Positions 29,509-61,268 of a DNA stretch of 64,000 nt are shown here, in pieces. Position numbers and translations under genes: made by a program. A model generated the notes under the pieces. The model ran no database searches, was not told the DNA's origin, and saw only the letters and a list, made by a program, of their open reading frames with translations. Origin of the DNA: Candidatus Schekmanbacteria bacterium (GTDB taxonomy: Bacteria > Schekmanbacteria > GWA2-38-11 > J061); contig JACRJM010000002.1 of the NCBI GenBank assembly GCA_016219965.1, positions 235,974 through 299,973 of the forward strand, written 5' to 3'. The number at the start of each line of letters is the position of its first letter. Position 1 is the first letter of the stretch.

Positions 29509-32500
29509 TCATGCATTAGTTTCGCTTTTATCTTCAAGCATCATTTTGTCAAGTTCATTGTAAACATTAATTACGTCATCCTTATATGATGCATTGTAAT
29601 TTGCAGTGAATACAACCTTACTTTTTAATTCTAAGTTCAAATTTCTAATGGCGACGCTATTGTTTTTCCAGTATTCAAAAAGTTTTTCTTTATCAAGAAC
29701 CTTTGTAAATTCATCGATATGCGGAATATACTTACGATCATCTTGTGGAGAGAAAATATTAGCAAAATTTATTAGTAAATAATCTACGAAATGCTCATAA
29801 TTATTTAAATTTTCTACTGGATTAAAACATTGGTCAAAAAGATAGTTATTTATTTTAGCCTTTATACCATTTTTATCTTGTGCTCCTATCTGATCATAAT
29901 AACCACAACCTATGCCACTTTTTATCATTGAATTGCCTAATTGATAGGTAATAAAAGATTTCATTCGGGTCTTCAGCTCTGCAACCCTTTTATCTATATC
30001 CTTAACTTCGCCTGAAGCAACTTTTGCTTCAACAAATGATATATATTTTCCAGTTAATTCAGGTAATGTTAAACGATCAATTAAATCAAAAATATTTTTA
30101 TTTGCGTTGATATATTGATTTTCAAAAAGCTGAAATATTTTTTGTGATATTTTTCTTATCTCCACAATTGCAATATTATTTAACAATCCGTCTGTTGGAG
30201 CTTTAGGATCACTATGTTTTGAAAGGGCACGTTGCAAATTAAATTCATGCCCACCTCGATCTGCGCTGCAATATAAACGGAATACGAGCAGGTCATAAAG
30301 ACCCAGAACCCCTCTTTCTTCCATTCCTAATGTTGAAATAACACCCTCGTCCTTATGTCTTTTTTCACCAAAAACCCATTCAGTAATCTCAGATATATAT
30401 TCTTCAGTATTATTATAATGTTTTCCATTTGAGTCACTCCAGCCAACTTGGTCTAATAATTTTATTAAAAAGAAAACTAAGTCATCTCGCAAACCAACGC
30501 CAATATCTTTATTAGAAAAAAAAGAGTGATTCGTTATATTATTTAAAAGATAAATGATTAGATTACTACCAACTTGGCTGTTGAATTCTGATAGACTATT
30601 AGTGATGACTCGCCAAAATAGTTCGTGGCTGAGTTCATTGTTAGTGTCAGAAAATTCTTCTCTCTCTAAAATTTCTTTAACAGGCTTTCCTTGGAGAACC
30701 TCATTTTTACAATTTAAATAAAACTTATGTTGACTTCGTTTTTGTGGTTTGGATAGTCGAACTATTAAATTTAGATATTCTTCGAGATTTCGATTATCTG
30801 TCCATCCTCCATTAAAACAAGCGTATGAGCTTGCAATTTCCTGGGGGGTATTATCTATTTTTATCTGAGATAACCTCTTGGATACATCAAACACTTTATT
30901 TAGTAGAAATTGTTGATTCTCTGAAAGGTGTTCTATATATTTTTTATATGCTTCAGAATTTTTATATTCATGTTCTATGGATTTGCCACTCTTAGGGTAA
31001 TCATCATCGTATGGTAATTGAACCGAGAAAAATCCTCTTTTCCCGTGTGTCTCAGTGTTATATATTTTACGAAAAATATTTGGATAATTAATATAGATCA
31101 GTAACAAGTGTATTAAATCCTGCTTATCAAAATCGCTGTTTTCAAAATCGGTCTTTTCAAGCTCAAACAATGACATCGTATTTATTAATCTTTTCAACTT
31201 TCTAACATCGCCTACAAAAGGCAAGTATTGATGATAGTCTTTAGATTTATAAATATCTATCAATCCCCCAACTGCTTTAGAAATTAGCACGGGATCAGCC
31301 TGTGAATTTCCCGTCAGGACCTTTGCCAAATTTTCTGATACATACTTAATAAGAACTTGGTTATCGAGATAAAGACTTACTTTTACATTTACAAATTTTT
31401 CAAGAAATTCAGTAATCTTTTCAGTGCGTATTTGTTCCTTTTCTAGCAAACTAATATTATCCGTATCATAACAAATTGCATAAGAAATATTTGGAAGAGT
31501 AAAGCTCTTCTTAATTACAAACAAAATATCTTTAATAGTGTGGAAATCCAATCTATCGAGATCATCAACAACAATAATTACTTTCCTATTAAAAGTTGAG
31601 AGGGTTGATTCAAGGTCATCGAACGCATCATCAACAGTATAATTACCTGGCGATATCTCAAAATTTAATCCAAAAAATGGGAATGTGACTTTTTTACTTC
31701 CTATAAAACGTGAATATTTAGAAATAATTGGCCGTATTTCTGGGGTAAAAACATTTTTATTTATCACACGAATCAACCCGTCTACAAATTTTTCTAGTAG
31801 ATTTTCTCTATTCTCATATCTCAATGGATTAAAAGAATAAATAATAATCTCCTTGTTATATTTAGTGTTCCAATACTCTTTGCAGAGATTTATGAATGTC
31901 GATTTCCCAATACCCCAAGGGGCATCAATGCCAAATACCATACTGTCAGGCGAGCCTTGATTATAAACCCTTTCAGCAAATCTCTCTGCTCCTTCAGAGA
32001 AATCAAGGAGATCATCGTCCTTTGATTTTTGTTCAATATCGCTTAAAAAAAATGGTATCTCGCTATCTTTTTTATAGATTCTTAATATTATCGCCCGGGC
32101 AAACAACAGGAAGGCTAATACTATTGGTAACAAAATTAATATTAGAAGCTGTTGAGTAGTTAATGATGCAACGATTTTGGTATATATATTGCTACCGATC
32201 CCACTAAACGACGCACTTATAAGAATTCCTGTGAAAAACATGATGGCGACATCTATTCGCTTACTTCTAATTATTTTTGTGATGGTTAAGTAAAAATCTC
32301 TGGCAATCAAATATATAATAACTAAAAATAGTAATAGTAGGCTAATAATCAATGCGCTAAATTCATACCCACTAGATGCAACGTATATATTAATCTTTGA
32401 TGCAATTATCTTTGAAAAATACCAAGACTCTGCAGACAAAACACCAAGTAATCCTACCTTTATCAGCGCTATAGTATTTGCGGTTGTTATTTTTTGATTA

Positions 32501-32514
32501 ATAAAGTTGTTCAT
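29509..32514 (-). CDS. KAP family P-loop NTPase with N-terminal membrane segments
   Basis: 1001 residues. Four hydrophobic segments fill residues 10-150, and the KAP NTPase follows: VFGIDAPWGIGKSTFINLCK (Walker A near 200) and VIIVVDDLDRLDFHTI (Walker B near 320), with the helical KAP insertion region and the long C-terminal part typical for the family. KAP NTPases with this topology occur in bacterial mobile and defence regions. The start codon directly follows the stop of a 65-residue acidic protein gene, so translation is coupled. An immune role is an inference. Confidence 0.85.
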   Translation of the reverse strand: MNNFINQKITTANTIALIKVGLLGVLSAESWYFSKIIASKINIYVASSGYEFSALIISLLLLFLVIIYLIARDFYLTITKIIRSKRIDVAIMFFTGILISASFSGIGSNIYTKIVASLTTQQLLILILLPIVLAFLLFARAIILRIYKKDSEIPFFLSDIEQKSKDDDLLDFSEGAERFAERVYNQGSPDSMVFGIDAPWGIGKSTFINLCKEYWNTKYNKEIIIYSFNPLRYENRENLLEKFVDGLIRVINKNVFTPEIRPIISKYSRFIGSKKVTFPFFGLNFEISPGNYTVDDAFDDLESTLSTFNRKVIIVVDDLDRLDFHTIKDILFVIKKSFTLPNISYAICYDTDNISLLEKEQIRTEKITEFLEKFVNVKVSLYLDNQVLIKYVSENLAKVLTGNSQADPVLISKAVGGLIDIYKSKDYHQYLPFVGDVRKLKRLINTMSLFELEKTDFENSDFDKQDLIHLLLIYINYPNIFRKIYNTETHGKRGFFSVQLPYDDDYPKSGKSIEHEYKNSEAYKKYIEHLSENQQFLLNKVFDVSKRLSQIKIDNTPQEIASSYACFNGGWTDNRNLEEYLNLIVRLSKPQKRSQHKFYLNCKNEVLQGKPVKEILEREEFSDTNNELSHELFWRVITNSLSEFNSQVGSNLIIYLLNNITNHSFFSNKDIGVGLRDDLVFFLIKLLDQVGWSDSNGKHYNNTEEYISEITEWVFGEKRHKDEGVISTLGMEERGVLGLYDLLVFRLYCSADRGGHEFNLQRALSKHSDPKAPTDGLLNNIAIVEIRKISQKIFQLFENQYINANKNIFDLIDRLTLPELTGKYISFVEAKVASGEVKDIDKRVAELKTRMKSFITYQLGNSMIKSGIGCGYYDQIGAQDKNGIKAKINNYLFDQCFNPVENLNNYEHFVDYLLINFANIFSPQDDRKYIPHIDEFTKVLDKEKLFEYWKNNSVAIRNLNLELKSKVVFTANYNASYKDDVINVYNELDKMMLEDKSETNA

Positions 32515-37411: not shown

Positions 37412-38254
37412 TCACACTGCGTTGTAACTAAGGAGTGTTTTATAATAGGTTTGTTTATGAGGTAGGGCTTGTTCTTTCAGAAATTCTAAGTCAATAGTTC
37501 CCTTTTTAATATGTATATCAATCTTTTTTTTATTACAGAAAGTGATTACCTTATAAGCCATCTCATTATAGAAGGTCTTTTGATCTGCATAATTGCCAAT
37601 CATATAATTATAATTCCACTTACCAAAAACAATTTTGTCTGCAAAAGATACTGCCTCTAAAATTTTTTCTATATCTTGTTTTATCACATTAGGTGTCGGA
37701 TAGGGTTCAATACTAACCCAGGTTTTCATGCCACGATTATGCAAGTATTTAAGAGATGCTATCCGTTCTTTAATGGGAGAGGCAAACGGCTCAAATCTGT
37801 TTTTGAATTGTTCTGAAAGAGAAACTAAGGTAATTCCATATTCATTTTGTGAGCCGTAATTTTTTTTATCGGTTAAATCCTTCGGATATATCCCTTTGGT
37901 TATAGAAACAACTTTTATATTATCTTGATTGAGTCGCTTTATAATTTTTAAACTTATCTCGGTAACTTCAGGAACTTTATACATAAAAGGGTCAGTTGCA
38001 AAACTCAAATAAACATATTTTATCTTACTTTTATATTTAGGAATTTCTTTATCTAAAAGTTCTAATGCATTACTAACTATTTTCGGCTTTTTCCAATCAG
38101 TATAATCTTTGATCACTCCGCTTCTTTTCTTTATCATCATTGCATAGCATGGATAAGTACAACCATGCGAACAGCCTTCCGCATGATTTAAACTATAGTC
38201 GGCATATTCCACACCACTTTTGTAAAGTAGTGTTTTACGTATAATTTCCTCCAT
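37412..38254 (-). CDS. radical SAM-like protein of the three-Cys-motif type
   Basis: 280 residues. GCSHGCTYPCYAMMI at residues 27-41 gives three cysteines at C-x3-C-x3-C with the trailing Tyr-Ala of spore-photolyase-like and Gp37/Gp68-type proteins, the signature that names the three-Cys-motif partner system. LSFATDPFM and VSIEPYPTPN resemble radical SAM barrel segments. The partner gene, tcmP, lies 30 bp upstream on the same strand. Fe-S cluster binding and chemistry are inferred from the motif. Confidence 0.75.
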   Translation of the reverse strand: MEEIIRKTLLYKSGVEYADYSLNHAEGCSHGCTYPCYAMMIKKRSGVIKDYTDWKKPKIVSNALELLDKEIPKYKSKIKYVYLSFATDPFMYKVPEVTEISLKIIKRLNQDNIKVVSITKGIYPKDLTDKKNYGSQNEYGITLVSLSEQFKNRFEPFASPIKERIASLKYLHNRGMKTWVSIEPYPTPNVIKQDIEKILEAVSFADKIVFGKWNYNYMIGNYADQKTFYNEMAYKVITFCNKKKIDIHIKKGTIDLEFLKEQALPHKQTYYKTLLSYNAV

Positions 38255-38284
38255 AATTTTATTATACTACAATTCTTAAATTGT

Positions 38285-39388
38285 TTACAGAAATTCGATA
38301 ACACAGCCTGCAGGGAAGAATCCTTTTTTTCGTGCAGCATCTTTACGAGATACTATTATTGCAGGTGGATTAGTTTTTTCCATAGGTGCAAGAATTTGTC
38401 TTTTATAATGAGTTTCTCTGAAAGAGGTTTTGGTGAGCACAAAATTTTCTAATTCTTCAATGCTAATAGTTTTTCCTTTAAAATTGTTTATTATTTCTTT
38501 TTTGAGATAAGAAAAGTCAGGCTCTGATTCAAATAACATTGTCTGTCCAGGATTAAACGTTGCATCGGAAAATTGGAATGTACCAATTTTATCAACTTTC
38601 CACATTGCTTCTTTCATTTTTTTTAATCCAGTCAGATCATTTGTACCAAAGAAAAGAAAATAATCAGTCTTATTAGATCTATTAATCATTTTAAAAGAAC
38701 GAACATATTTTATGCCTGCTTTTTGCTCTAATTGTTGTTCATAAATATTATGAAGTAAACTCATCCTTTCCTTTGGATTCTTTTCGAATATTACTTTCTT
38801 CCACAAATCAGTTCCGAATGTTTCAATGAATCTTGGCCAAAGCTTTTTATCTTTAATAAAACGATTTATATCTTCATACATAAAGTTAATAAGAACTTCG
38901 CATTTTTTGTTACTCATAATTCGCTGTATTAGAGAAAAAGGAATTCCAGAAAAACCAAATGGGTCGATAAATACAAAAGCGGGAGCAATCATCTTTTTTT
39001 GATCATCTATATAATCAAGAATTTCAGTTAAGGTTTCATCAAATTTTCCACATATACACTTGGCAGTAAGATTTGATGGTAAAGATAAAGATGATATTTT
39101 ATTCTCAAGAGACTTGCATCTTTTTGGATCTGCTTCAATAAAGAGCATTGTAATTTCAGCGTCGATTGGTGCCTTATGCTCTGTAACAGCTTTAATAGCA
39201 ACAATTGGTGATCCATTTTTCCCGTCACTATACTCACCGGGTCCTGCAAAGGCATCAATATATAGAACTCTGCCATTCCATCTTGTGATTATTGGTAGCC
39301 ATGCATTTAAATATTTTCTTAATATTTCAAGCTTTGCTTCGGTATGAGGTTCTATTTTCCAAGTAGTAGATGTTATTGTTGTCATCAA
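38285..39388 (-). CDS. tcmP: three-Cys-motif partner protein TcmP
   Basis: 367 residues. WKIEPHTEAKLEILRKYLNA then VLYIDAFAGPGEYSDGKNGS is the diagnostic opening of TcmP, a methyltransferase-like (Rossmann) fold, with FIDPFGFSGIPF at the presumed acceptor position near residue 130. The function is unknown; it always travels with a three-Cys-motif radical SAM-like protein, here the gene 30 bp downstream. Found in prophages and islands. The first two Met codons are both usable. Confidence 0.85.
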   Translation of the reverse strand: MMTTITSTTWKIEPHTEAKLEILRKYLNAWLPIITRWNGRVLYIDAFAGPGEYSDGKNGSPIVAIKAVTEHKAPIDAEITMLFIEADPKRCKSLENKISSLSLPSNLTAKCICGKFDETLTEILDYIDDQKKMIAPAFVFIDPFGFSGIPFSLIQRIMSNKKCEVLINFMYEDINRFIKDKKLWPRFIETFGTDLWKKVIFEKNPKERMSLLHNIYEQQLEQKAGIKYVRSFKMINRSNKTDYFLFFGTNDLTGLKKMKEAMWKVDKIGTFQFSDATFNPGQTMLFESEPDFSYLKKEIINNFKGKTISIEELENFVLTKTSFRETHYKRQILAPMEKTNPPAIIVSRKDAARKKGFFPAGCVIEFL

Positions 39389-42900: not shown

Positions 42901-43479
42901 TCATAAATCACTTCCACCGACAAAAAACTCATAAATCCTCAGCTTATTCATTTTCAAATATTCCATTCCCTCTTCCAAGTTTAAAACACAAGGATAAGAC
43001 CAGCCGTTCCAGTAGTGTTTTCCTTCATTGAGCTTTTCAAATTTAAACCCGTAAAAGTGATAGAGGTTATATATCTCCCTCTCAAGTATGGCATACATAT
43101 TCGTTGAAGGATTTCTTGCTTTAAGCGTCTGGTGCATTCCCTTGAATAGACTCAAAAGGATTGTTGTCTTTCCACGGTACCTTTTATCAATCACAGTTAA
43201 AGCAATCTCTACAGGGAAAGCTTCATTTGAATGTATATCAACCTCCGGGAAAGCATCCGACTTTGTGATAGGCAGCCCTTTGGGTGAATCAAAAACGATC
43301 TTTAAGACTCCGGCTATTTCATTTCCGTTTAGAGCGATGAGGTCAATCTCTGATTCTTTATATCCTTCAATCACCTTTTCCGCAGGCCAATCTTTTTCAT
43401 TGATGCAGACCTCATAGAGAAGTTTTTTCATCTGCAATCGCTCATCTTCATTTTGAGGTTGTCTCACAACGATCTTCAT
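42901..43479 (-). CDS. GNAT-fold N-acyltransferase-like protein
   Basis: 192 residues. ESEIDLIALNGNEIAGVLKI and VEIALTVIDKRYRGKTTILL match the beta-strands and acyl-CoA loop of a GNAT fold, of the autoinducer-synthase-like or N-acyl amino acid type; YHFYGFKFEKLNEGKHYWNG fits the C-terminal half. Its ATG overlaps the stop of the PLP decarboxylase gene (4 bp), so both proteins are made together. It may acylate the decarboxylation product; this is an inference. Confidence 0.6.
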   Translation of the reverse strand: MKIVVRQPQNEDERLQMKKLLYEVCINEKDWPAEKVIEGYKESEIDLIALNGNEIAGVLKIVFDSPKGLPITKSDAFPEVDIHSNEAFPVEIALTVIDKRYRGKTTILLSLFKGMHQTLKARNPSTNMYAILEREIYNLYHFYGFKFEKLNEGKHYWNGWSYPCVLNLEEGMEYLKMNKLRIYEFFVGGSDL

Positions 43480-44597
43480 TTGGCACCTGTAACAACTACC
43501 TCCGGATAATTAAACCCGTTGTAGTTCTGGTAAGAGTTGGTATAGGCACCGGCGTTTAGAATATATACCCTGTCACCTACCGCTAAATCAGGAAGCAGGA
43601 CATCTTCTATAATTTTATCCAAACTGTCACAGGTAGGACCAGAGAGATTAAATCTCTTCTTATCTACACTTAAGTCATTATCCTTTTCGGTCTTAATCTC
43701 GAATTTGAATTTCTCGTAAGCTTCCATGAGACCGTGAAAAACACCAGCGTCAAGGTAAAGCCAGTTCTTGCCGTTGCGATTTGCCCTGCCAATTACTGAG
43801 GTTATAAGGACTGAGGCATTAGCGGCTATGGAGCGACCGGGTTCAATAAGCAATCGAAGTTTCTGATTGGGAAAATATTCATCGAGACTTTGCCTTCCAA
43901 CTTCACCTATCTCTTCAATCGAAGGTACGTTCTTTATATACCTTACAGGGATACCGCCTCCAAGGTTTAGCATTGAAAGGTCAATCTTCTCTCCACTTGC
44001 CTTAAAAGCCACGTCAGCACACACCTTGATGGCTTTCTGCCAATTCTCTACCCTTAGACACTGTGAGCCCACATGGAAGGTAAGCCCATAAGGTATGAGA
44101 GAGTGATACTTAGCTTTTATCAATAGCGGCACTGCCTCAGCTATTGAAGCCCCGTATTTGTCATTTAAAGGCCATTCACTGCCGTGGTTATCAACATGAA
44201 GCCTAAGATAGATATTGGATTTGGGCGCAAGCCTTGAGAGCTTCTGTATTTCTTCCTCTGAGTCAAAGGCAAATAGCCTTACTCCAAGTTCATAGGCTTT
44301 CTTAATGTGATCCGGAACCTTTACGGGGCTTGAGAAGGCAATCTTTGAAGATGGTACCAAGTCTTTTACTTTTTCAATCTCACCCCATGAGGCAACATCG
44401 AAGGAAGAGCCTATAGATGCAAGTGTTCTTAACACTTCAGTATGGTCATTGGTTTTTACGGAATAGAAGATTTCAATGTCGCGGTTAAAGTTTCTTTTTA
44501 TCCTCTCGTAGTTTTTCCTGACAACGTCCCTGTCGATGATGAAAAAAGGCGTAGGAGTGGCTTTGAATCTCTCTATAATCTCAGCCGTAAGAATCAT
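43476..44597 (-). CDS. fold-type III PLP decarboxylase (ornithine/lysine type)
   Basis: 373 residues, alanine-racemase-fold basic amino acid decarboxylase. FYSVKTNDHTEVL has the PLP lysine, then GSSFDVASWGEIE, HVGSQC, LNLGGGIPVRYI and EPGRSIAANAS for phosphate binding, and GPTCDSLDKI with the catalytic Cys of ODC/LDC; the closing NYNGFNYPEV is also typical. It makes a diamine from ornithine or lysine. Substrate cannot be set by eye. Found here among mobile genes, fused by translation to a GNAT gene. Confidence 0.88.
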   Translation of the reverse strand: MILTAEIIERFKATPTPFFIIDRDVVRKNYERIKRNFNRDIEIFYSVKTNDHTEVLRTLASIGSSFDVASWGEIEKVKDLVPSSKIAFSSPVKVPDHIKKAYELGVRLFAFDSEEEIQKLSRLAPKSNIYLRLHVDNHGSEWPLNDKYGASIAEAVPLLIKAKYHSLIPYGLTFHVGSQCLRVENWQKAIKVCADVAFKASGEKIDLSMLNLGGGIPVRYIKNVPSIEEIGEVGRQSLDEYFPNQKLRLLIEPGRSIAANASVLITSVIGRANRNGKNWLYLDAGVFHGLMEAYEKFKFEIKTEKDNDLSVDKKRFNLSGPTCDSLDKIIEDVLLPDLAVGDRVYILNAGAYTNSYQNYNGFNYPEVVVTGAK

Positions 44598-44763
44598 CTT
44601 TTCTATTCAATAAAAGTGAGTGTGAGTTTCTAAAATTCCTGTGATTTATGACCTAAGTTTTTGAAATTTTTAACTATATCTTTATGCTTAATTTTAGTTT
44701 ATTTTCTATAAAATAATTCTTTTATTGCATATTCGCTTGACTTTCAAACTCCACTGGAGTTAA

Positions 44764-45672
44764 TTGAAGAGCATGAAGGATGCAATTGAAAGATACCTGT
44801 CACACCTTAAGGTGAGCAATTTCTCCGATGGCACGGTCATCATTTACCGGAGCGATCTTGAGAAATTCCGTGAGTTCTTAAAAGCAGAGCTTGGTGAGAG
44901 TGTCGCTCTATCAGATTTTGACGATCTTGAGATAAGAGCCTATCTTAAATATCTAACGGAAGCGGGAAACTCTCCCATCACCCGTGCAAGAAAGCTTGCC
45001 GCTATTAAATCTTTCTACAACTACCTCTGCCGGGTTGAAAAATTTCCTAAGAACCACGCTCACAACATAGAGATGCCAAAGGTTGATAAGAACCGCCATC
45101 TGGCATTCAGCTACCTTGCGGAAGAGGAATACAAGGAGTTTCTAAAGACCGTAAAGAGAGAAGCAACAACCTTCTTTTTTGAGCGAGATATAGCGATTGT
45201 TTCAACCTTGCTTGGCACTGGCATCAGGGTAAGCGAGCTTGTGGCATTAAACCTTGATGACCTTGATTTTGAGAATAAGGAGATGAAGGTTTTAAGGAAA
45301 GGCAAGAAAACTACGGTTGAGGTAGTAAACGACGGAGTGCTATTAAACATCAGACGGTGGTTAAGAAAACGAGAAGCGCTTCCTTTAAACGGAGAAAAAG
45401 GAATCTTTGTTTCAAAGCAGAAAAAGAGGATGGATAAAAGCTCGGTTCAATATATGATTAAAAACTATGGCAGGAAATCCGGCATCGGAAAGAAAATTAC
45501 CTGTCACACATTAAGACACAGCTTCGGCACTAACACCTTAAAGAAGGGCAACGATATCGAAACGGTAAGGGAATTGATGGGGCATGAGTCCATTTTAACC
45601 ACCCAGAAGTACATGCACTCAAACCGGGAAGATAAGCGAAAAGCAGTAAATTCCATGGATGTTTTGGTCTAA
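44764..45672 (+). CDS. XerC/XerD-like tyrosine recombinase
   Basis: 302 residues from a TTG start (an ATG three codons later is also possible; a GGAG lies close upstream). N-terminal SAM-like domain (YLSHLKVSNFSDGTVIIYRS), then catalytic Arg in GTGIRVSELVALNL, KGKK Lys, HTLRHSFGTNTL and MGHESILTTQKYMHSN with the Tyr nucleophile. Lacks an arm-binding domain, so Xer- or transposon-like. It stands alone and divergent from the PLP decarboxylase gene. Confidence 0.9.
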   Translation: MKSMKDAIERYLSHLKVSNFSDGTVIIYRSDLEKFREFLKAELGESVALSDFDDLEIRAYLKYLTEAGNSPITRARKLAAIKSFYNYLCRVEKFPKNHAHNIEMPKVDKNRHLAFSYLAEEEYKEFLKTVKREATTFFFERDIAIVSTLLGTGIRVSELVALNLDDLDFENKEMKVLRKGKKTTVEVVNDGVLLNIRRWLRKREALPLNGEKGIFVSKQKKRMDKSSVQYMIKNYGRKSGIGKKITCHTLRHSFGTNTLKKGNDIETVRELMGHESILTTQKYMHSNREDKRKAVNSMDVLV

Positions 45673-45822
45673 TCTTATTTATAAGAATTATTTTGTGGGA
45701 AATGAGGGAAGGAAAATAGGCACGCTTTTTTGCTTTGCTAAGATAAAAATCAGATAATGCTTTTTTCTTTCCATTGCTTCTAAAAGTTTTGTAGAAAAAG
45801 CTTTATCATTTTCTTTCATCTT

Positions 45823-47232
45823 TCAGCACCCGTGATTATATATTTTTGAATCATCTAAACTCCCGCTTATTATTTTTAAATGTAAACATATTGGATCATC
45901 ACTTGAAAACCTTAATTTTTCGGTAATTATATTATTTCTTTCGGACCAATACCATTCAAAGTACTTATTCAATATTATTTTACCTTTTTCTTTATTATTG
46001 TTAGTAGTGGCTTCTTTAAGATCTTTTTCATCATCTTCGGTCGTAATAAATGGAATGCCTCTTTTATTTTTTTCAAAATAATCAATTAATTGCTTAAGAA
46101 CAATAATTATTTCTTGCTCCGTTAGTGAGTTATTTTTGATATTAATTTCAATTGAAACATCTATTTTAGTGTTTATAATATCGACATAAACGGAAGGCCA
46201 TGTTTTGAATTTAGTTATTGTTTGATAAGAAAGACCCTCTGGGCGCATAAATTCTTGGATTTCATCACACAATACTAACAAAAAAGCCAATGGAAACATC
46301 GTAAATTGAAATGGAAAAAACTGCCCGTAATCTTTCTTTTTGAAATTATGAAGTGCTATATCAAGTGCGGCTCTTGCAATATCTTGTGTTAAAATAAAAT
46401 CGTAATAACTTGGGAATTCATTTAAGTCTAATTTATACCTATCACTTCGATGGAAAAATGTATCTTCTATATTTTTAAATAAACTTATTGACGCCAAAAC
46501 ACCATGATCAGATTTTTCATATGCTTCACATAATGCTTTATAAAAATATGGATTTAATTGACCATCTTGTTCATAAATACCATCTTTAGGTTTTACTCCA
46601 TTAGAAAATATCCTTGCTATATTTTTAAAATATTTTTGAATATTTAATTCTAAAGAAGTATCTTTTTTTAGATTATAATCTGTTATTTTAAAGCCAAAAT
46701 GTTTTAAGTATTTGTTTAATCCATTTATAATTTCTTGAAAATGCTGGATAGGTATTGCTACATCATGAAAATTAGTTATTAGAGTCCAGATAAAAAACAT
46801 TCGTTTTTCAGCTGAATAAGGTGTGAATTTATTAGGAATAGTCCCCGGTTCAGGTTGTACTTTTAATAAGTTTTCAAGTGTTGGAGTGTCGCACTTAGCT
46901 ATAATTTTTGAAAGAAGCTGACCCCCGAAAATGAAATTATTAAACATATGAATATAGTGATCTCTGTATCTTCCACTTCCCTCACGCAAAAGACCATATA
47001 ATGCAAATTCAACCTTCGGAAAATTTTTAAGAACAGTTGCCAGATGATCATTTGAATAATCGCGCCAAAATGCCTCAAAACATTCACTTACGTGTTCTAC
47101 TTGCTTTGAAAGTTCATCTTGTCCCAATATAGAAATTAAAGCCTTCTTTATGAGTTCCTTTTTTGTACCTTCATGGAACCAGTCATTGTATAAATCGCTT
47201 AATATTGCTTCTGCTTGTTCATTCGCATCCAC
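45823..47232 (-). CDS. divergent HD-domain phosphohydrolase-like protein
   Basis: 469 residues. YRDHYIHMFNNFIFG, FFIWTLITNFHDVAIPIQHF and FLLVLCDEIQEFMRP are spaced like the H...HD...D metal ligands of HD phosphohydrolases. The sequence is otherwise unlike common dNTPases. Flanking regions are helical with no known domain. It follows the deoxyribosyltransferase-Ppx fusion gene by 39 bp on the same strand, so the two probably form a two-gene system. The hydrolysed substrate is unknown. Confidence 0.6.
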   Translation of the reverse strand: MDANEQAEAILSDLYNDWFHEGTKKELIKKALISILGQDELSKQVEHVSECFEAFWRDYSNDHLATVLKNFPKVEFALYGLLREGSGRYRDHYIHMFNNFIFGGQLLSKIIAKCDTPTLENLLKVQPEPGTIPNKFTPYSAEKRMFFIWTLITNFHDVAIPIQHFQEIINGLNKYLKHFGFKITDYNLKKDTSLELNIQKYFKNIARIFSNGVKPKDGIYEQDGQLNPYFYKALCEAYEKSDHGVLASISLFKNIEDTFFHRSDRYKLDLNEFPSYYDFILTQDIARAALDIALHNFKKKDYGQFFPFQFTMFPLAFLLVLCDEIQEFMRPEGLSYQTITKFKTWPSVYVDIINTKIDVSIEINIKNNSLTEQEIIIVLKQLIDYFEKNKRGIPFITTEDDEKDLKEATTNNNKEKGKIILNKYFEWYWSERNNIITEKLRFSSDDPICLHLKIISGSLDDSKIYNHGC

Positions 47233-47271
47233 GGTTATTTTTTTCTTCTCTCGTTGATATTTTAAAATCTA

Positions 47272-48747
47272 TTATATGCTTGTTTGTTTTATTTTCAGTA
47301 ATAGACCGTCTGTAAGATTTCTATTACTTGGCGTAATTTCATTAATACCAAGCTTCTTAGCCACGCAAAGCGCAATTGCGTTACATACTATTGCACCATC
47401 CATCCATTTCGGATTAGAAGGATCTGGTGCCAAAGCATATAATTGATTATTTGTCATTTTCCGAATCTTATCCGAGAATTGTTCAAAATCTATAATGCGA
47501 GCAAGTTTAGGATGAGCAGGTGATAAACTAACATCAATAAGATTACATCCAGCGCTTTTTACATAGTCAAGTTCTCCTCCTGTATGCAAAAAAATAGTTT
47601 TATTATGAATTGATAAATTATTTATTTTTGCAATTGCAGATTCAATGAAAGATACCATTTCATTGTGTTCTTGATCTGTCGGAGAATCTGATTTAAGAAA
47701 ATTGTTTCGCAAAGATCTAACTCCAAGTTCATTGAAATGATATTTTTGTTGGATGTTATCTTTCGTACCAATTATAAGTTCTGTAGTACTGCCACCAATA
47801 TTGAGCACAGCGAAGGTTAAATCATCTGAAAAAAAATCATAAATAGTTCCTTTGTATAATATTTCTGCTTCATCATTTTCAGTAATTATTTCCAAGTTTA
47901 AGCCAATCTCTTTTTTTACTATATCAATTAAAAGATTTTTATTTTTCGCGTTTCTAGCTGCACCAGTAGTTATAATTTTTGTTATTTCGACATTAAAATT
48001 TTTGTTTGCAATAAGCCATTGTTTAATTACTTCTATATTTTTGAAAATTGTATCTGATTGTAAGTTTCCTGATTTATGAACATCATCTCCAAGGGGAGCT
48101 CCAGAAAATTTCTTCTCGTAAAGAGGTTTTACTAAGCCACCGCAAACATCAGCTACAGTTAGCTTAACAGAACTAGAACCAAAATCAATAATGGCGTAAC
48201 GGTGAGTTTTTTGAGAAGCAGAGTATGTTACCATTAATTCTAAGGCTGATTTCGAATAATTTTTTAAATATTCTTTGTCGTCCCCATGTTGTATCATTTC
48301 AGAAACACCAACCTTTATTTTTTCTATTAAATCTATTTCGTCTTTATAAATTAAAATAACCGTGGGAACGAGTTGAGGTAATCCATAAATAAAAATGCTT
48401 GGGTCATCATTATCTTTTAGTAATATAATAAGTTTTTTTTGTAACATTACCCCTGTCGCAATTTCCATATGCACCGCTCTACTACTTTGAGGTATTGCAA
48501 CTATCCAATCACTTTCTCTAACTTCATTAATACATATATCTGCTATTTCGCACGGATCAATATAATTAGCTCCCCAATGCCCCTTGTCCCTATGAGGCAA
48601 TGAAACCTTAAAGTTAAAGGATTCTAGAACCTTTTCAATTTTTTCTAATTTCTGAATAAATATAGGGTTGGAAATTTTGCCATAAAGACGCCCAGGTAAT
48701 TGATCTGTCAAACTAGTAAATGGCGCGGCCAAATAAATTTTATTCAT
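47272..48747 (-). CDS. nucleoside deoxyribosyltransferase-like / Ppx-GppA fusion protein
   Basis: 491 residues in two parts. Residues 1-160 (IYLAAPFTSLTDQ, ESDWIVAIPQSSRAVHMEIA then TGVMLQKKLIILL) resemble the nucleoside 2-deoxyribosyltransferase fold, with a Glu at the catalytic position. Residues 175-490 are a full Ppx/GppA domain: AIIDFGSSSVKLTV, TTGAARNAKN, ITENDEAEILYKG, LNIGGSTTELIIG, FLHTGGELDYV, TDGLLLKI. I know of no common family with this order, and the gene is paired with an HD protein. Nucleotide or (p)ppGpp-like signalling is an inference. Confidence 0.7.
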   Translation of the reverse strand: MNKIYLAAPFTSLTDQLPGRLYGKISNPIFIQKLEKIEKVLESFNFKVSLPHRDKGHWGANYIDPCEIADICINEVRESDWIVAIPQSSRAVHMEIATGVMLQKKLIILLKDNDDPSIFIYGLPQLVPTVILIYKDEIDLIEKIKVGVSEMIQHGDDKEYLKNYSKSALELMVTYSASQKTHRYAIIDFGSSSVKLTVADVCGGLVKPLYEKKFSGAPLGDDVHKSGNLQSDTIFKNIEVIKQWLIANKNFNVEITKIITTGAARNAKNKNLLIDIVKKEIGLNLEIITENDEAEILYKGTIYDFFSDDLTFAVLNIGGSTTELIIGTKDNIQQKYHFNELGVRSLRNNFLKSDSPTDQEHNEMVSFIESAIAKINNLSIHNKTIFLHTGGELDYVKSAGCNLIDVSLSPAHPKLARIIDFEQFSDKIRKMTNNQLYALAPDPSNPKWMDGAIVCNAIALCVAKKLGINEITPSNRNLTDGLLLKIKQTSI

Positions 48748-48891
48748 TTTTTTATTCCTCTTTATATATGTCTTTATCTATGTGGGACGAACCATGTCCT
48801 TAAAGCATATTTTAAATGTAAACATGGTTGCAAGTCAAGGTGAGATAACTTTACAATATATGATATTCATTTGTTGTTAGTAGTTATAAAA

Positions 48892-52243: not shown

Positions 52244-54151
52244 TCAGTTAAATTCTACCGTTGCTTTATATTTTCCATAATTTCGTTCCACGATTTTCCT
52301 TATATTAAGTTCAACAAAATTTGGTCTATCTTCTTTTTTTACTGATTGTACAATATAATCTGCTGATGATTCTAATCCCCCGCGTATTTCTTTATTAAAC
52401 TGATCTAGAGCCTCATTTTCATCAAGCGTAATTATTAATAATCCTCTCCTATCTATTTTCATGATCCGAATTAAATAAGGAAGAAATGTAGAATCGGCAG
52501 CTAATAAAGGAAAACGCAAAGGAAGATGATAAGTACTTAGAAAAACAATTCGTTGAATAGCTCTTATCTTTACTTCTTGAAGAATAAATGAAATGCATTG
52601 TTCAGGCATTAAATACCCTGTATTAAAACTGACAATAAATATTGCCTTTTTTGTGCCTGGATAAAGATATTTTTCTATTCTATATTTTTCATCATCTATA
52701 CTCTTACTCTTATCATCTGATGACCAGTTACAATTTATTAAATGTTTAAATTTAGGTACTTCTTGATAGTTAATTTTTTTTATAGTTTTATTTGGATGCA
52801 GGTTGTCAACTTGAATTTCAGGACCAAAATTTATAATCATCACATTCCTATTTTCTTCTTCTTTTTGATTATCTTTATTAGACAGATAACTATAAAGATA
52901 TGGCATTGAGATTGCGAGCTTATTTGTATTTCTGGCACCTTTGATTAAGATAAAAGAATCATCCCTTATTTTGAATATGGAATTGCTTTTAGGTATCGTG
53001 TTAGTATTATTTTTTTTATCTTTTGCTAAAGTAATTCCAAAATCTGATTTGGGTACTTTTAGGTCATTTCCAAATTTACGTTGCCATCTTTCTTGCTTTG
53101 CAATTTGTGTATGCAAACTTGGATAGATGACGAGACCATTATTTCTTATTTTGAATGGATGCTTACCAAGAACATGTCTTTGGTATCGTGATTTTGTAAC
53201 TTCTATTTGTTTAAATGTATAGTTTAGCGTATTCCAAGATAGTTTGATATGTATATCTGTTAAAAAAGAAACCTCATTCAAAAAAGAATCAGAATTATGT
53301 GAATTATCCGCTTCTTCATAAATAAAAATACCTAAAATTCCAGACCAGGTAACCAAACGAAATAGTTGGTATATTTGTTCCCTATTAAGTTGTTCTTGAC
53401 CGAATGCGTTTAGACTATCGACAGCCATTGCTAAAAGTGTATTCTCCTTTAATTCGTTTTTCTGCTCTTCTTTATTTGTTTCCCAGTCACCTTTGGACCA
53501 AGAAGCATTTTCACATAAACGACACAGCTGTTTAAACCTTTCCCAAAATACAATTCTCTCATTTTCGTGAGACAGTTGGCTGTAAAAACGAGGAGAAAGT
53601 TTTGGGAGAAGCAAAGTTCTATACTTGTCAGCATCCTCTGTTATTTTATTATACGTTTCAAGATAAGGCCTTCCCATTTTGCCATCATAGCTTGTAGATC
53701 CACCGCCAGTTGGTTCAAACTGCAAATTTTTAATCTTAATCTTCTTATCAAATGATTTATATCCACAGCTTGTTAGAGCTATTCCCTTTTTATTATTTTG
53801 TGTTAACATTTTAGCTGTTTTCTCTATTGTTACTGATGACTGTTCAATCGAGATATATGCAACAACCCCATTCTCATTTTCGTTTATACTACCCGTAGGG
53901 CATCTTCCAGATGATTTGGAACAACTTATTTTTTGCAACCTGCAAAGAATTTCAAGAGCTAAAGATGTTTTTCCTATTCCCGGAGGTCCACTTATCACAA
54001 TATTGATACCCATAGGTCTATTCTGATCATGAAAATTGTATTGTGGAATATAAATTCCTCGTCCAAGAATTCCTTGGCACATATCTTCGTCAAGTAAATA
54101 GTTTAATTCACTGTTTGAAGTAACAAAAAAATTTTGCTGTGTTTTATTCAT
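52244..54151 (-). CDS. KaiC-like ATPase with a second, degenerate RecA domain
   Basis: 635 residues. The first RecA unit has Walker A ISGPPGIGKTSLALEIL (residues 52-68), LLAMAVDSLNAF (Walker B) and FKQIEVTKSRYQRHVLGKHP then FKIRNNGLVIYPS, the sequence style of KaiC/RadA-like proteins. The second starts near FILIKGARNTNKLAISMPYL with a P-loop that lacks the GKS/T core, and ends in a RecA-like fold (TLDENEALDQFNKEI). The plan resembles KaiC, which also has two units. It follows an HD-domain gene by 39 bp, forming a pair. Confidence 0.7.
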   Translation of the reverse strand: MNKTQQNFFVTSNSELNYLLDEDMCQGILGRGIYIPQYNFHDQNRPMGINIVISGPPGIGKTSLALEILCRLQKISCSKSSGRCPTGSINENENGVVAYISIEQSSVTIEKTAKMLTQNNKKGIALTSCGYKSFDKKIKIKNLQFEPTGGGSTSYDGKMGRPYLETYNKITEDADKYRTLLLPKLSPRFYSQLSHENERIVFWERFKQLCRLCENASWSKGDWETNKEEQKNELKENTLLAMAVDSLNAFGQEQLNREQIYQLFRLVTWSGILGIFIYEEADNSHNSDSFLNEVSFLTDIHIKLSWNTLNYTFKQIEVTKSRYQRHVLGKHPFKIRNNGLVIYPSLHTQIAKQERWQRKFGNDLKVPKSDFGITLAKDKKNNTNTIPKSNSIFKIRDDSFILIKGARNTNKLAISMPYLYSYLSNKDNQKEEENRNVMIINFGPEIQVDNLHPNKTIKKINYQEVPKFKHLINCNWSSDDKSKSIDDEKYRIEKYLYPGTKKAIFIVSFNTGYLMPEQCISFILQEVKIRAIQRIVFLSTYHLPLRFPLLAADSTFLPYLIRIMKIDRRGLLIITLDENEALDQFNKEIRGGLESSADYIVQSVKKEDRPNFVELNIRKIVERNYGKYKATVEFN

Positions 54152-54190
54152 AATTCATTCGCCTATACTTTTAAGTATTGTAAAATTATG

Positions 54191-55615
54191 TTAATTTTTT
54201 TGAACTCGTTCTTTCAATGTGTCAATAATATATGCGAATCTTTGGCATATCTCATTTTTTACTTTTGCTAGGTATTGTTTTGTTTCTATTTTAGATAGTT
54301 TTATACTCCATTGTCCATCAAGTTCATCAAAATAGATTTTATTATTTAATCTTATCATTCCACTTCTTTTAAAAGGTATATGCACCTTAAAATATATATC
54401 ATTTGATAAAGAAGCTATGCGATGAAAAATTCGTTTTACTTCATCTATTTTTTCTATTCCGGCTTCGCTAGCTAATACTTCCCAAGTAAATGATACTTTT
54501 CCCAATACTCCAAGACGTAGTTTAAACATTGCTTCAAGTACACGGTCAACTTTCAATGGTGTAATATTAGGTTCAATTGTCAACATAAAATCATATGGTG
54601 TGGTATTCTGCTGATCTTGGTTTCTTAGTGTTTGTCTTTTTGTAGTAATTAAATTATTATCAACTAAAATTGTACATGATCTTAATTCTAATCCCATTTG
54701 TTTTAACTCTTTACCCCAACTTTCAAATACTCTTTCTTTTTCAATTATGTCATTGTAAATCCAATAAAGTTTTTCATTTTTTTCCCCCTTAGCTAACAAA
54801 GATAAGAATTCTGGTGTAGGATACATTAATAAATTCCGACCTACAAGGTCTAATTCGCAACCACTAATAAGTCCTCGTACATCTCCTTTAGACCCTTCAG
54901 GACCAAAGCCAATCTCGACTTTCCTATGATAACTTGTATCTAGTTCATCTGCTAAACACAATAGTGCTCCAAGCCATTCTATATGAATAGTACCATAAGA
55001 ATCTAAATAAACGTTGCTGAGCCACCCGTGTCGATCTGCTATCTTACGATTATTATGATTATGAAGTAGACAAACGCGAGCTATACAATCACTCAGTCCT
55101 GCATCAAAAATACTAAATTTTGCCGGTGTTTCCAATATGGTAAGTGCGGATAATAGAGAATGAGCCTTAGATCCTTTATTGCTTTCTATTAATTTATTTT
55201 TTGAACGCTTAATCCACCACTTACTTACATTGGCCCTATCCTTATCAATTCTTGATAACATTTGTTGAATGATGCCATTTTCACTATGCTTATTGTCAGT
55301 ACTATCCACCTGTTTAATTTTTCCAATATCATGTAAAGTCAATGCAGTAAGCAAAACATAAGATTCTGCAAAAGAAAGGTGTAAATTCTCTTGGATCTCT
55401 AAACAAGTATTTATTCCAGCTTCGATATTCTTTATGTGCGGTAATCCGGTGTGAGAACCATTGTCTATTGGAAAATTTGGAAGATATTTTTCTATGAAAA
55501 TTTTTTCTAAATTATTAAAGTTTTCAACCAGAGTTGAAACATATTTGTCATTACCTTTAGACATTAGATAACGTAGATTTCGCTCTAACTTTACTCTACT
55601 CTTGTCGTTAATCAT
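54191..55615 (-). CDS. HD-domain phosphohydrolase-like protein
   Basis: 474 residues. H near residue 60 (LPHIKNIEAG), LTALTLHDIGKIKQ (HD), HSENGIIQQM, AHSLLSALTIL, VCLLHNHNN and LLCLADELDTSYHR (last Asp) give a complete HD set. The C-terminal 200 residues hold no known motif. First gene of the pair with the KaiC-like ATPase (39 bp, same strand). It differs in sequence from the HD protein at 45823. The substrate is unknown. Confidence 0.75.
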   Translation of the reverse strand: MINDKSRVKLERNLRYLMSKGNDKYVSTLVENFNNLEKIFIEKYLPNFPIDNGSHTGLPHIKNIEAGINTCLEIQENLHLSFAESYVLLTALTLHDIGKIKQVDSTDNKHSENGIIQQMLSRIDKDRANVSKWWIKRSKNKLIESNKGSKAHSLLSALTILETPAKFSIFDAGLSDCIARVCLLHNHNNRKIADRHGWLSNVYLDSYGTIHIEWLGALLCLADELDTSYHRKVEIGFGPEGSKGDVRGLISGCELDLVGRNLLMYPTPEFLSLLAKGEKNEKLYWIYNDIIEKERVFESWGKELKQMGLELRSCTILVDNNLITTKRQTLRNQDQQNTTPYDFMLTIEPNITPLKVDRVLEAMFKLRLGVLGKVSFTWEVLASEAGIEKIDEVKRIFHRIASLSNDIYFKVHIPFKRSGMIRLNNKIYFDELDGQWSIKLSKIETKQYLAKVKNEICQRFAYIIDTLKERVQKN

Positions 55616-56593: not shown

Positions 56594-56725
56594 CTACTTT
56601 AATTTTTTTAATTTAATTGTTTCTTTTTTTGTAAATTCGGATTTTGCCCGCTCAACAGCTATTCTTTCTTCTTCAGAAAGAGGAGTTATATCAAACTCTA
56701 ACAAATTGCTTGATTTGTCTTTCAT
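56594..56725 (-). CDS. 43-residue protein coupled to the nucleotidyltransferase
   Basis: Starts ATG in an ATGA overlap with the stop of the nucleotidyltransferase gene. Product MKDKSSNLLEFDITPLSEEE then RIAVERAKSEFTKKETIKL is charged and helical, with no known family. Size and place are like small partners of minimal nucleotidyltransferase toxin-antitoxin systems, but HEPN features are absent. Confidence 0.6.
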   Translation of the reverse strand: MKDKSSNLLEFDITPLSEEERIAVERAKSEFTKKETIKLKKLK

Positions 56726-57069
56726 AAGATAACGCCTTCCCTTTTAATATTTTCATACAGCGGCATAGCTTTGTACAAAGGAGTACTCCAATCTTTTCTA
56801 CTTGTGAGATTAAGGCTAAATAATAAATCTGTTTCAAGTTCAATCGGAAATACCTTGTCTCGAATGACATCCTCTTTCTTAAACGTTGCCTCTCCATCTG
56901 TCAAGATAAGTAGGTTATAATCAGACTCTGACCCAGCATCTCCTCTGGCTCTTGAACCATAGAGCATAACCTCTGCAGAAAGGTCAATTGCTTTGATTGC
57001 CTCGCGACATCTTTCCAAGATATTCTTTTCTGCTACGCTCAGAGCTTTATAGTCTTTTAACTGTTTCAT
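56722..57069 (-). CDS. minimal nucleotidyltransferase (MNT) domain protein
   Basis: 115 residues. VMLYGSRARGDAGSESDYNL is the GSRARG...SDxD motif, here with Asn after SDY, so the second catalytic Asp is altered (SDYN instead of SDxD); a further acidic residue sits in ELETDLLFSL. The start at 57069 follows AAAGGTGAAAAT; a longer frame to 57252 overlaps the upstream membrane gene without a site. MNT proteins usually pair with HEPN toxins; here the downstream gene is a 43-residue protein instead. Confidence 0.8.
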   Translation of the reverse strand: MKQLKDYKALSVAEKNILERCREAIKAIDLSAEVMLYGSRARGDAGSESDYNLLILTDGEATFKKEDVIRDKVFPIELETDLLFSLNLTSRKDWSTPLYKAMPLYENIKREGVIL

Positions 57070-57244
57070 ATTTTCACCTTTATTTTTAGAGGAACTTATG
57101 GCCCATTGCCATAGTTTTAACGAACTATCTTCAGCATAGCAATAGAGTGGATTTGCCGTCAAATGCAATGCAATTGTATATATTGCAACTCCGCTGATGT
57201 ATAATCTCATAAATTTTAAAGTGTTCTTGAACTCTTCCTTAACT

Positions 57245-57718
57245 TTAAGCATGAAGATTTATTTTATTATTTTTATAGATTGATCGCATCATGCCAAACC
57301 TCACTATTTTTAAAGTTATATAGGCTGGTAGAGTTGCAGAAATAGTAACAATCGCTGTGATTTTTAATTCGACTGCCCACAATATAAAACAGATTGCGAT
57401 TGTATATACTGCTGTTCCTATAGCCATAAATATATATGCAATAAAAGAGCATTTTCTCCGTTTAATTTCGTCGTTTTTTATAAAGAACCTGCTTTCTGAA
57501 CTGGCTGTGTAATATAAATATGATGATATTACACAAGAGATAATTGATAACATCATACAACTTGAACCAGCTTCAAACCACATTGAAAAATTTTTAAATT
57601 TTGGTGGTATGCTTGTAAATATAGTAATAAATAAAACAAAAGTTGATAGAGAAATGCCAATCCAAGTATTTGTGAAATTAACCCATAATTTATCATCTAC
57701 CGTTGAATAAATTTTCAT
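57245..57718 (-). CDS. four-helix membrane protein of unknown function
   Basis: 157 residues with four likely membrane segments (WIGISLSTFVLFITIF, MMLSIISCVISSYLYYT, FIAYIFMAIGTAVYTIAICF, AIVTISATLPAYITL) and a basic tail. No family recognised. It lies upstream of the nucleotidyltransferase gene on the same strand with a 175-bp gap, and is probably a separate unit. Confidence 0.6.
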   Translation of the reverse strand: MKIYSTVDDKLWVNFTNTWIGISLSTFVLFITIFTSIPPKFKNFSMWFEAGSSCMMLSIISCVISSYLYYTASSESRFFIKNDEIKRRKCSFIAYIFMAIGTAVYTIAICFILWAVELKITAIVTISATLPAYITLKIVRFGMMRSIYKNNKINLHA

Positions 57719-59413: not shown

Positions 59414-60274
59414 TTAAATTTCAATAAACCCCTGTTTCAATTTTATCAATTGATTTAAAATTTCATCAAATTTTTCCCTAAATGTACGCAATCCCATTAT
59501 CATGTCTGTAACTAATCTGTAATTGTCTTGCTCTTCAGTTTCTTTATCCAATATAGACTTAATCTCTTTCACGGTATCGAGGTCTGCCATTTTTGCCATG
59601 TCACGTCCAAGTAACCTGATGCCTGCAATCTTGTTATCAAAGCCCTCTTCCTGCAATAACGACTGTTCTTCATTATATAATCTGTCTCTGTTTCCGGTAT
59701 CTTCATATTTATTCATAATGAACAATAAATCCTCAGCATCTTTTTGACGTGACGGATATTTTTCTTTCCATGAAATAATCTTCATCAGCGCAAGACCGGG
59801 TAAAGTTGGAAGCTTAATGTCAAGATCAGGATTACTGTTTAACCTGACTGTTATTGAATATTCGTAAGCTTCCTGGAATCCAAGCATGTTCATTATCAAT
59901 TCTTGTTCCGGAGGCCAGCTTATCCTCTTATGTTCTCCTGCTATAGAACCAAAGGGGATGATATCTATAGAAACATTACCGAACAGGAGTCTCTCTTTTC
60001 GCCTGGTGTTTGCAAATTTTCCTGTTGAAATCAGAAATGTGGTTAATTTATTGAACTGATCCCAGTCAGAGACTTCGACACCCAAATCAATGTCAGTCGT
60101 AATCCTTGGAGATTTAATATTATAGCAATGTTCAAAAATATAATCCCTCGCTGATGCGCCAACAATAAAGAAAGGAATGCTTAGTGAATCTGCCACTTTT
60201 TTTATGGCAAAAAGGGCATCTATATGAGAAGGCTCTTTAATCTTCCCTGATAAGTCGAACAATATATTGCTCAT
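59414..60274 (-). CDS. AbiEii-like nucleotidyltransferase toxin of a type IV TA system
   Basis: 286 residues. PFFIVGASARDYIFEH and RITTDIDLGVEVSDWD match the GxS and DxD motifs of nucleotidyltransferase (NTP transferase) toxins of the AbiEii type, then IDIIPFGSI has the third Asp. It overlaps the AbiEi-like gene by 38 bp and follows it. It should add nucleotides to tRNA or RNA in members of this family; activity here is inferred. Confidence 0.7.
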   Translation of the reverse strand: MSNILFDLSGKIKEPSHIDALFAIKKVADSLSIPFFIVGASARDYIFEHCYNIKSPRITTDIDLGVEVSDWDQFNKLTTFLISTGKFANTRRKERLLFGNVSIDIIPFGSIAGEHKRISWPPEQELIMNMLGFQEAYEYSITVRLNSNPDLDIKLPTLPGLALMKIISWKEKYPSRQKDAEDLLFIMNKYEDTGNRDRLYNEEQSLLQEEGFDNKIAGIRLLGRDMAKMADLDTVKEIKSILDKETEEQDNYRLVTDMIMGLRTFREKFDEILNQLIKLKQGFIEI

Positions 60275-61268
60275 AAATCACCTTTGCAGTTTCAATATTT
60301 CTTTCATTATCTGTTGCAATGAGATCAGCATAAATCAGTATGGGATGAACTGTGTCCTCGTGTGTCCCTTCTTGTTCTCGAATCCAAAATCTTTCGAGGA
60401 TCTCAACTTCTCCTTCCGGATCTTTCCTCAGTCTATTTTCCATTAGCAGTTGATTAATCTGCAGAGTAGTCGTGTAGATAGTGATGAGTTGGGGCTTTAA
60501 ATATTGAGTTAGCTTAGCAGCAGCAACTTCGCCTCCCCACTGAGCATCCAAGGGATTTAATTCTTTTTGTTGCCACCAATCCTGTTCACCTTTAAAATGA
60601 CCTAATATCTGTTTGGGCCTCAGCTTTTCAGGATAAGCAGTTACCCATCGCTGAAACAATTTTTCCCGCTGGATTATCTTATTACCGCGTTTGCCCATGT
60701 CAAGGAGATAGCCTAATTCCTTGAGCTCCTTCATGAGCCATACAACGGTGCCGAGCGCTACACCTGCCGTAGCTGCAATTTCGCGGTAAGATTTATTCTC
60801 TAATCCTCTATTACACAAGAAGGCATAGATCAATTTAAGTCCTGTAGGCTGAAATGTCCGTCTCAGAGGAGTGCGTGTAAAGGTTTCCGGAGGTTTGTTT
60901 CCTTTAATAAATATGTAAAGAGGAGGTTGGTTGATATAGGCATTGCCGGCTGTATCGATAAATTCAATTCCGTTCTGTTTAAACTCGTCTGCCATCTGCC
61001 TGTTAACATATTTGGTTATAACAATCATTGGATTGAGATTTTTCACATTATCAAATTGTATCAAGCGAAGTCCTGTCCTTGTAACATTTGCTTTAACTTC
61101 AACACAAAAACAGATCTCTTTGCCCTGAACAAGCATTTTCAAAATGCAGTCTCTCTGCGGTTTGTCATTCGCTCCAATTATCTCAATCTTTGCCTCTATT
61201 TTGAGATGTTTTTTTAGTGCATCTAAGGCAAGTTGAATAATTTCATTTTCTATGATTTCTCTGACCAT
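60237..61268 (-). CDS. AbiEi-like type IV TA antitoxin
   Basis: 343 residues. A N-terminal domain with CFCVEVKANVTRTGLRLIQF (nuclease-like ExK; MIVITKYVNRQMADEFKQNG and GIEFIDTAGNAYI follow), then a winged helix (AATAGVALGTVVWLMKELKE) and a C-terminal region typical for AbiEi family antitoxins. It is followed by, and overlaps, the nucleotidyltransferase gene. It should repress the operon and oppose the toxin without contact, as other type IV antitoxins do. Confidence 0.75.
   Translation of the reverse strand: MVREIIENEIIQLALDALKKHLKIEAKIEIIGANDKPQRDCILKMLVQGKEICFCVEVKANVTRTGLRLIQFDNVKNLNPMIVITKYVNRQMADEFKQNGIEFIDTAGNAYINQPPLYIFIKGNKPPETFTRTPLRRTFQPTGLKLIYAFLCNRGLENKSYREIAATAGVALGTVVWLMKELKELGYLLDMGKRGNKIIQREKLFQRWVTAYPEKLRPKQILGHFKGEQDWWQQKELNPLDAQWGGEVAAAKLTQYLKPQLITIYTTTLQINQLLMENRLRKDPEGEVEILERFWIREQEGTHEDTVHPILIYADLIATDNERNIETAKVIYEQYIVRLIRED

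Follow-up and report, generated by a model that had tools for sequence, protein, structure and literature searches.

The question raised by this locus is whether two closely spaced genes, one encoding a two-domain fusion protein and the other an HD-type protein, act together on a nucleotide signal. The genes lie in the window, i.e., the whole stretch of 64,000 nucleotides of a Candidatus Schekmanbacteria genome that was analysed, and had been read in an earlier note as an anti-phage or stress system. The reading favoured here, with a probability of roughly 0.4, is that the two genes may form an accessory conflict cassette (for defence or stress) that targets nucleotides and lies in a mobile defence island of high AT content. 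The relevant features are as follows.

47272-48747, (-) strand: fusion gene, 491 aa, ATG start; N-glycosidase-like and Ppx/GppA-like domains
48292-48747, (-) strand: N-terminal MilB/BlsM-type (NDT-superfamily) nucleotide N-glycosidase-like domain, residues 1-152
47281-48204, (-) strand: C-terminal Ppx/GppA-like (ASKHA) domain of a divergent N-type subfamily, residues 182-489
45823-47232, (-) strand: HD-type protein gene, 469 aa, GTG start
46240-46971, (-) strand: HD core of the HD protein, residues 88-331
48809-48838, (-) strand: promoter-like site TTGACT-18-TAAAAT (10/12), upstream of the fusion gene

Layout and chromosomal setting of the gene pair

The list of open reading frames agreed with the coordinates, strand and spacing reported in the earlier note: the two genes are on the same strand, with the HD gene located downstream of the fusion gene after an intergenic gap of 39 bp (47233-47271). 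No terminator-like site was found between the fusion gene and the HD gene. The total of promoter-like sites across the region was at chance level. The pair has a GC content of 0.30 to 0.32 as compared with 0.40 to 0.44 in much of the window. A short ORF on the (-) strand (45688-45819, 43 aa by eye) begins just past the HD stop codon and may be the leftover of a third gene. The reading of the pair as a two-gene system is based on the gene spacing and on the AT-rich, defence-gene-rich setting.

RadC, PDDEXK exonuclease and TraD/TrwB-like ATPase genes are present around the pair, and a tyrosine recombinase gene (44764-45672) lies nearby. Inverted repeats of 24 nt (83% complementary) flank the recombinase gene on both sides (44701-45703); a repeated genomic element was ruled out, as the recombinase is single copy in the genome. 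A KaiC-like double P-loop ATPase (635 aa) and an HD-CE protein (PF24391, 474 aa, 54191-55615), whose genes are 39 bp apart, are encoded at 52244-55615 (-) and are a candidate for another two-gene conflict system in the island. The window also contains genes for a PifA-like NTPase (29509-32514, (-), 1001 aa; PADLOC PifA match 3.3e-28) and, at 37412-39388 (-), for a radical SAM/DUF5131 protein and an adjoining GMT-wHTH protein. An NTP_transf_2 nucleotidyltransferase gene (56722-57252) is located beside a 157-aa ORF, and beyond these two are AbiEi/AbiEii genes (59414-61268). An ornithine-decarboxylase-like gene (43476-44597, (-)) is present 1.2 kb from the pair. The three nearest sampled relatives had neither the HD gene nor an N-type Ppx gene with an E value of 1e-25 or less.

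The two domains of the fusion protein

Residues 3-152 of the fusion matched MilB (E 2.6e-9), BcmB (1.2e-8) and BlsM (1.6e-6) in phmmer searches; these three are crystallised CMP N-glycosidases and belong to the nucleoside deoxyribosyltransferase superfamily. The Pfam model Nuc_deoxyrib_tr gave a value of 0.035 with this domain, under its cut-off. An earlier description of this region as nucleoside deoxyribosyltransferase-like was correct in outline; the closest proteins are MilB-type N-glycosidases, and a MilB/BlsM-type nucleotide N-glycosidase-like domain is a more fitting label than deoxyribosyltransferase.

MilB residues were placed on the fusion through a HMMER alignment and then verified in a multiple alignment of MilB, BcmB, a Kitasatospora relative, an Embleya relative and two distant standalone proteins; roles of the active-site residues were taken from the literature (PMC4081090). 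The catalytic (nucleophile) Glu (MilB E103, fusion E95), the stacking Phe (Phe22, F10) and the phosphate-binding Ser (Ser97, S89) were all kept, as was the P-F-x-x-L-T motif of the MilB group. The family motif F-L-(G/A)-(G/A)-P-F-x-x-L-(L/V/T) was present as YLAAPFTSLT, with Tyr replacing the first Phe. The gate Arg/Lys position (MilB Arg23; hmCMP) is T11 in the fusion, the cytosine-contacting Glu62 is lost, with K55 or G56 there, the ribose/base-contacting Asp78 is C72 and the phosphate-loop Gly99 is A91. A T-even-type hmCMP hydrolase identity was ruled out, the Arg/Lys gate and Glu62 both being missing, and the fusion was not classed as a CMP/hmCMP hydrolase because it has no equivalents of Glu62, Asp78 and Arg23. 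From these residues we infer that the N-terminal half may be an N-glycosidase scaffold for nucleotide 5'-phosphates whose choice of base has changed, or else a binding-only version. The AlphaFold model of this half had a pLDDT of mostly 31 to 60, a low confidence due to the absence of relatives from its alignment, and fold searches with the fusion model gave matches for the Ppx half only and nothing on the low-confidence N-terminal half.

The C-terminal half matched PF02541 (Ppx-GppA) over residues 198-486 (E 8.9e-26, 91.4 bits against a cut-off of 27), and from residue 182 onwards the fusion matched solved exopolyphosphatases. The AlphaFold model of this half was good and had the two-lobe ASKHA fold of Ppx (match to 3mdq with a VIA Z of 24.2 and an rmsd of 3.5 for 289 residues). 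Judged on sequence and model together, the assignment of a Ppx domain is certain. All three motifs previously claimed for the fusion (FGSSSVKL, TTGAARNAKN and NIGGSTTEL) were found in the translation. The claim of a complete Ppx/GppA domain, however, held for the presence of the domain and not for its catalytic completeness: the catalytic acids of Escherichia coli PPX are E121, D143 and E150 (PMC5417653), and the fusion keeps equivalents of E121 and E150 but has Asn316 in place of D143, as does the rest of its subfamily. The NCBIfam model TIGR03706 scored 128.4 bits, under its cut-off of 307.

Three signatures characterize this N-type subfamily, namely, Asn316 within NIGG (NxGG), T389-G-G-E392 and N445-PKWMDGA-452, and these were invariant in 16 aligned members, which came from a genome scan and belong almost entirely to MAGs of Bacilli, Clostridia and Tenericutes. 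The Asn, the TGGE and the KWM-GA signature recur in a Nostoc plasmid protein. A tree of 23 rows separated the proteins of the window, Nostoc and the Firmicutes from nine canonical Ppx proteins with support of 100/99, the window protein forming the branch closest to the canonical side; the window protein scored 150 bits with a canonical profile versus 105 bits with the Firmicutes N-type profile. Among 386 sampled genomes (327 genera), the window's own genome was the sole carrier of an N-type Ppx with an E value of 1e-25 or less, and it carries another, canonical Ppx at a separate site. Two Ppx matches in gut-phage records scored closer to the canonical profile.

These substitutions bear on an alternative in which the fusion would be a pseudo-enzyme sensor, both halves only binding nucleotides and regulating the HD enzyme as sole catalyst. 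Loss of Arg23 and Glu62, the change of MilB D78 to C72 and the change of PPX D143 to N316 are in keeping with such a role, as are the residual activity that is all that remains in E. coli PPX mutants of this set of acidic residues (PMC5417653) and the capacity of SLOG and DrHyd relatives to be sensors without catalysis (PMC9503650). The nucleophilic Glu (E95) and two of the three PPX acids are, however, retained, and the invariance of N316 and of the new TGGE Glu across the 16 subfamily members suggests a changed rather than a dead site. A purely sensory fusion was, overall, considered highly improbable.

The gene company of the N-type Ppx elsewhere was examined at 80 loci. A divergent adenylosuccinate-synthetase-like (PurA-like) gene adjoins the N-type Ppx gene in 30 of these (Firmicutes/Tenericutes). 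The order Ppx then PurA-like was seen, for example, at L005, L012, L013, L029 and L075 (among L003-L082), and no published account of this conserved pair was found. One cluster (L046:245-8784) contains two HD genes, a queuosine-salvage gene, an N-type Ppx gene, NUDIX-like genes (assigned by eye), two Ham1/RdgB genes and a radical SAM gene. The HD family of the window was absent from all 80 loci. The N-type Ppx gene of the Nostoc plasmid has an NDT-like gene (147 aa; PF05014, weak at 0.028) directly upstream of it; the two domains of the fusion are thus neighbouring genes in Nostoc, which provides the best outside support for their working jointly.

The same Nostoc stretch has ornithine-decarboxylase-like, oxygenase-like and MFS genes beside the NDT-like and N-type Ppx genes and, therefore, lends support to a different explanation, small-molecule or nucleoside biosynthesis or salvage, in which the MilB-like half would free a base, the Ppx-like half would dephosphorylate a nucleotide intermediate and the HD protein would be a pathway or housekeeping phosphohydrolase. 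Those relatives of the N-terminal domain that have been characterised act in biosynthesis (MilB and BlsM belong to nucleoside-antibiotic pathways), and a Kitasatospora relative is in an aminotransferase/ligase/MFS/methyltransferase cluster. Standalone NDT-like genes at L087 and L088 adjoin apparently unrelated genes. The decarboxylase-like protein encoded 1.2 kb from the window pair also has 33% identity to the Nostoc one (L085:55-1245), a co-occurrence within a few kilobases of an N-type Ppx that may be due to chance. The window, however, has no other adjacent co-directional biosynthetic genes, an opposite-strand recombinase stands between the pair and the decarboxylase, the neighbouring genes are defence and mobile genes and the hmCMP/CMP recognition residues are gone from the N-terminal domain. 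A biosynthetic or salvage role was thought fairly unlikely.

The HD protein family and recurrence of the pair

The window HD protein had no Pfam match. A profile built from nine relatives, with the window protein left out, recovered it at E 9.4e-28 among 906 sequences, the next unrelated sequence being at 0.009; this sequence comparison confirmed it as a member of an uncharacterised, unnamed HD family. H92, H95, G103, W149, H156, D157, H295, L318, D323, Q326 and R330 were invariant in all 10 members, and H243 was conserved in 9. The core (residues 88-331) holds H92/H95, H156-D157, H243, H295, D323, Q326 and R330. The HD assignment derives from this metal-ligand pattern and from a weak Pfam HD match (0.023) of one relative; an AlphaFold model made from three sequences had a pLDDT of 38, at which fold matches are meaningless. 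The proposal of a divergent HD protein 39 bp downstream of the fusion is supported by the held-out profile and the conserved ligand set. Homology to the HD-CE protein encoded at 54191-55615 was rejected, as there was no detectable similarity, the alignment being at shuffle level (Z 0.4).

Profile searches detected the family in 6 of 132 genomes of one phylum, plus G027, and at low frequency elsewhere. The first relative found, on a Parabacteroides plasmid (E 7e-11), is encoded by the last gene of an operon (L083:2090-7248) that also specifies a membrane protein, a ThsB-type TIR protein, Nmad2, HMUDK_hel and a viperin-like radical SAM protein. In two other genomes, a ParB-domain gene is directly upstream of, and overlaps or abuts, the HD-family gene (L129:1977-4528 and L130:4512-7102); at L130, a DNA-methyltransferase-like gene is next after the ParB/HD pair. 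A ParA-like ATPase gene is beside the HD-family gene at L097, the HD-family protein is fused to GAF domains at L127, near NUDIX- and HAD-like genes, and no obvious partner was present at L126, L128 and L131. Searches of phage records with the HD protein detected no relatives. Viral contigs likewise yielded none when the HD protein, the N-type Ppx alignment or the N-terminal domain served as query, and two when a wider HD alignment was used.

A broader reading of these partners is that the HD protein could belong to a new modular conflict-effector family with swappable sensor or partner modules (ParB, ParA-like ATPase, ThsB-TIR/viperin-like, GAF and, here, the MilB-Ppx fusion). The fusion would then be a bifunctional nucleotide N-glycosidase/ASKHA protein reading, through its altered sites, a new nucleotide signal outside those of known Ppx/GppA or NDT enzymes. 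We regard this possibility as distinctly unlikely.

Recurrence of the pair was also assessed. Neither protein matched any component of PADLOC-DB 2.0.0 at E values of up to 1, and there was no NCBIfam or Pfam system match for the pair. No second full-length fusion was detected in plasmids, phages, viral contigs, 386 genomes and one genome-contig scan, the last of which yielded, with the full fusion, relatives of the Ppx half only. Among the genomes searched, the pairing of fusion and HD gene occurred once, in the window; as a second fusion was not detected either, this does not refute a regular association of the two. Neither the fusion nor the HD family was described in the database models or in the literature retrieved, which covered few subscription papers. 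The ingredients of the pair are of known kinds, and it is their combination of domains that is without a description in the retrieved literature.

The single occurrence is consistent with the two genes being accidental neighbours, i.e., a stray nucleotide-housekeeping fusion next to an HD gene that would be a separate, one-gene effector of the island, as are the many partners of the HD family, at three loci none obvious, and the lack of this family at other N-type Ppx loci. Such an arrangement is rather doubtful, the genes having the same strand, the same base composition, a 39-bp gap and no intervening terminator, and the HD-family gene overlapping or abutting its ParB partner at L129 and L130.

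Proposed function and comparison with known systems

If the pair is a conflict cassette, the MilB-like domain would bind a nucleotide 5'-phosphate other than plain CMP or hmCMP and would probably hydrolyse it at the N-glycosidic bond. The ligand of the Ppx/GppA-like ASKHA domain would be a phosphorylated nucleotide signal resembling (p)ppGpp, an NTP or polyphosphate, and the domain may either gate or follow the MilB-like reaction. The HD protein would be a two-metal phosphohydrolase acting together with the fusion on a nucleotide of the same pathway, either destroying nucleotides as a second effector or removing the signal. The predicted outcome is nucleotide depletion or signalling under phage or other stress. 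That the two genes operate jointly, what they act on and in which order, and that they counter phages all belong to this proposal rather than to what was observed.

Points counted in favour of the cassette were the common strand, short gap and shared low GC; the N-glycosidase homology with its catalytic Glu; the Ppx fold and subfamily; the full metal ligands, patchy distribution and changing partners of the HD family; and the occurrence of N-type Ppx genes beside nucleotide enzymes elsewhere and of many defence-like genes in the window. DrHyd/NDT-superfamily domains have been described in conflict systems as NADases, signal makers and sensors, and the conflict roles of the TIR/DrHyd/SLOG class have been reviewed (PMC9503650); NDT domains are also found fused to AbiJ N-terminal domains (PMC3710099). 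Counted against were the absence of a system match in PADLOC, NCBIfam or Pfam, the pairing seen once, the finding of the HD family at 0 of 80 N-type loci, the location of the annotated one of the two closest plasmid relatives of the N-terminal domain in an antibiotic-like biosynthetic cluster and the absence of at least one canonical active-site residue from each catalytic half of the fusion. The anti-phage or stress role suggested earlier is plausible from the island and from the TIR, viperin-like, ParB and ParA-like partners of the HD family but matches no known defence model.

If the pair works as read, it would join two nucleotide-signal enzyme folds found elsewhere in separate proteins and would point to an unnamed HD family with shifting partners, several of them defence-like, which would then be a concrete target for anti-phage screening. 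The N-type subfamily offers a test case for the function of a Ppx/GppA domain without the catalytic Asp.

Compared with MilB, BcmB and BlsM, the entire N-terminal half of the fusion aligns and the catalytic Glu, Phe22, Ser97 and P-F-x-x-L-T are kept, but the fusion has Thr11 at the gate, lacks Glu62 and Asp78, has Ala for G99 and is joined to a Ppx domain. Compared with Ppx/GppA proteins (PF02541, TIGR03706), it shares the fold, the D-x-G-S motif and the E121 and E150 equivalents but differs from canonical members in having Asn316 for D143, TGGE in place of an AGT-type motif and NPKWMDGA near the C terminus, in falling below the TIGR03706 cut-off and in clustering with gut-Firmicutes and Nostoc proteins. 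The HD family is outside the coverage of any Pfam model but has the His / HD / His / His / Asp ligand pattern of the HD phosphohydrolase superfamily (including HD-CE, PF24391). The Parabacteroides operon, with its Thoeris-like (ThsB) TIR and viperin-like (pVip) genes, differs in that it has no NDT-Ppx fusion and in that no TIR, viperin-like, Nmad2 or HMUDK gene adjoins the window pair; it resembles the pair in ending with an HD-family relative and in carrying a TIR protein, whose fold class is related to that of NDT.
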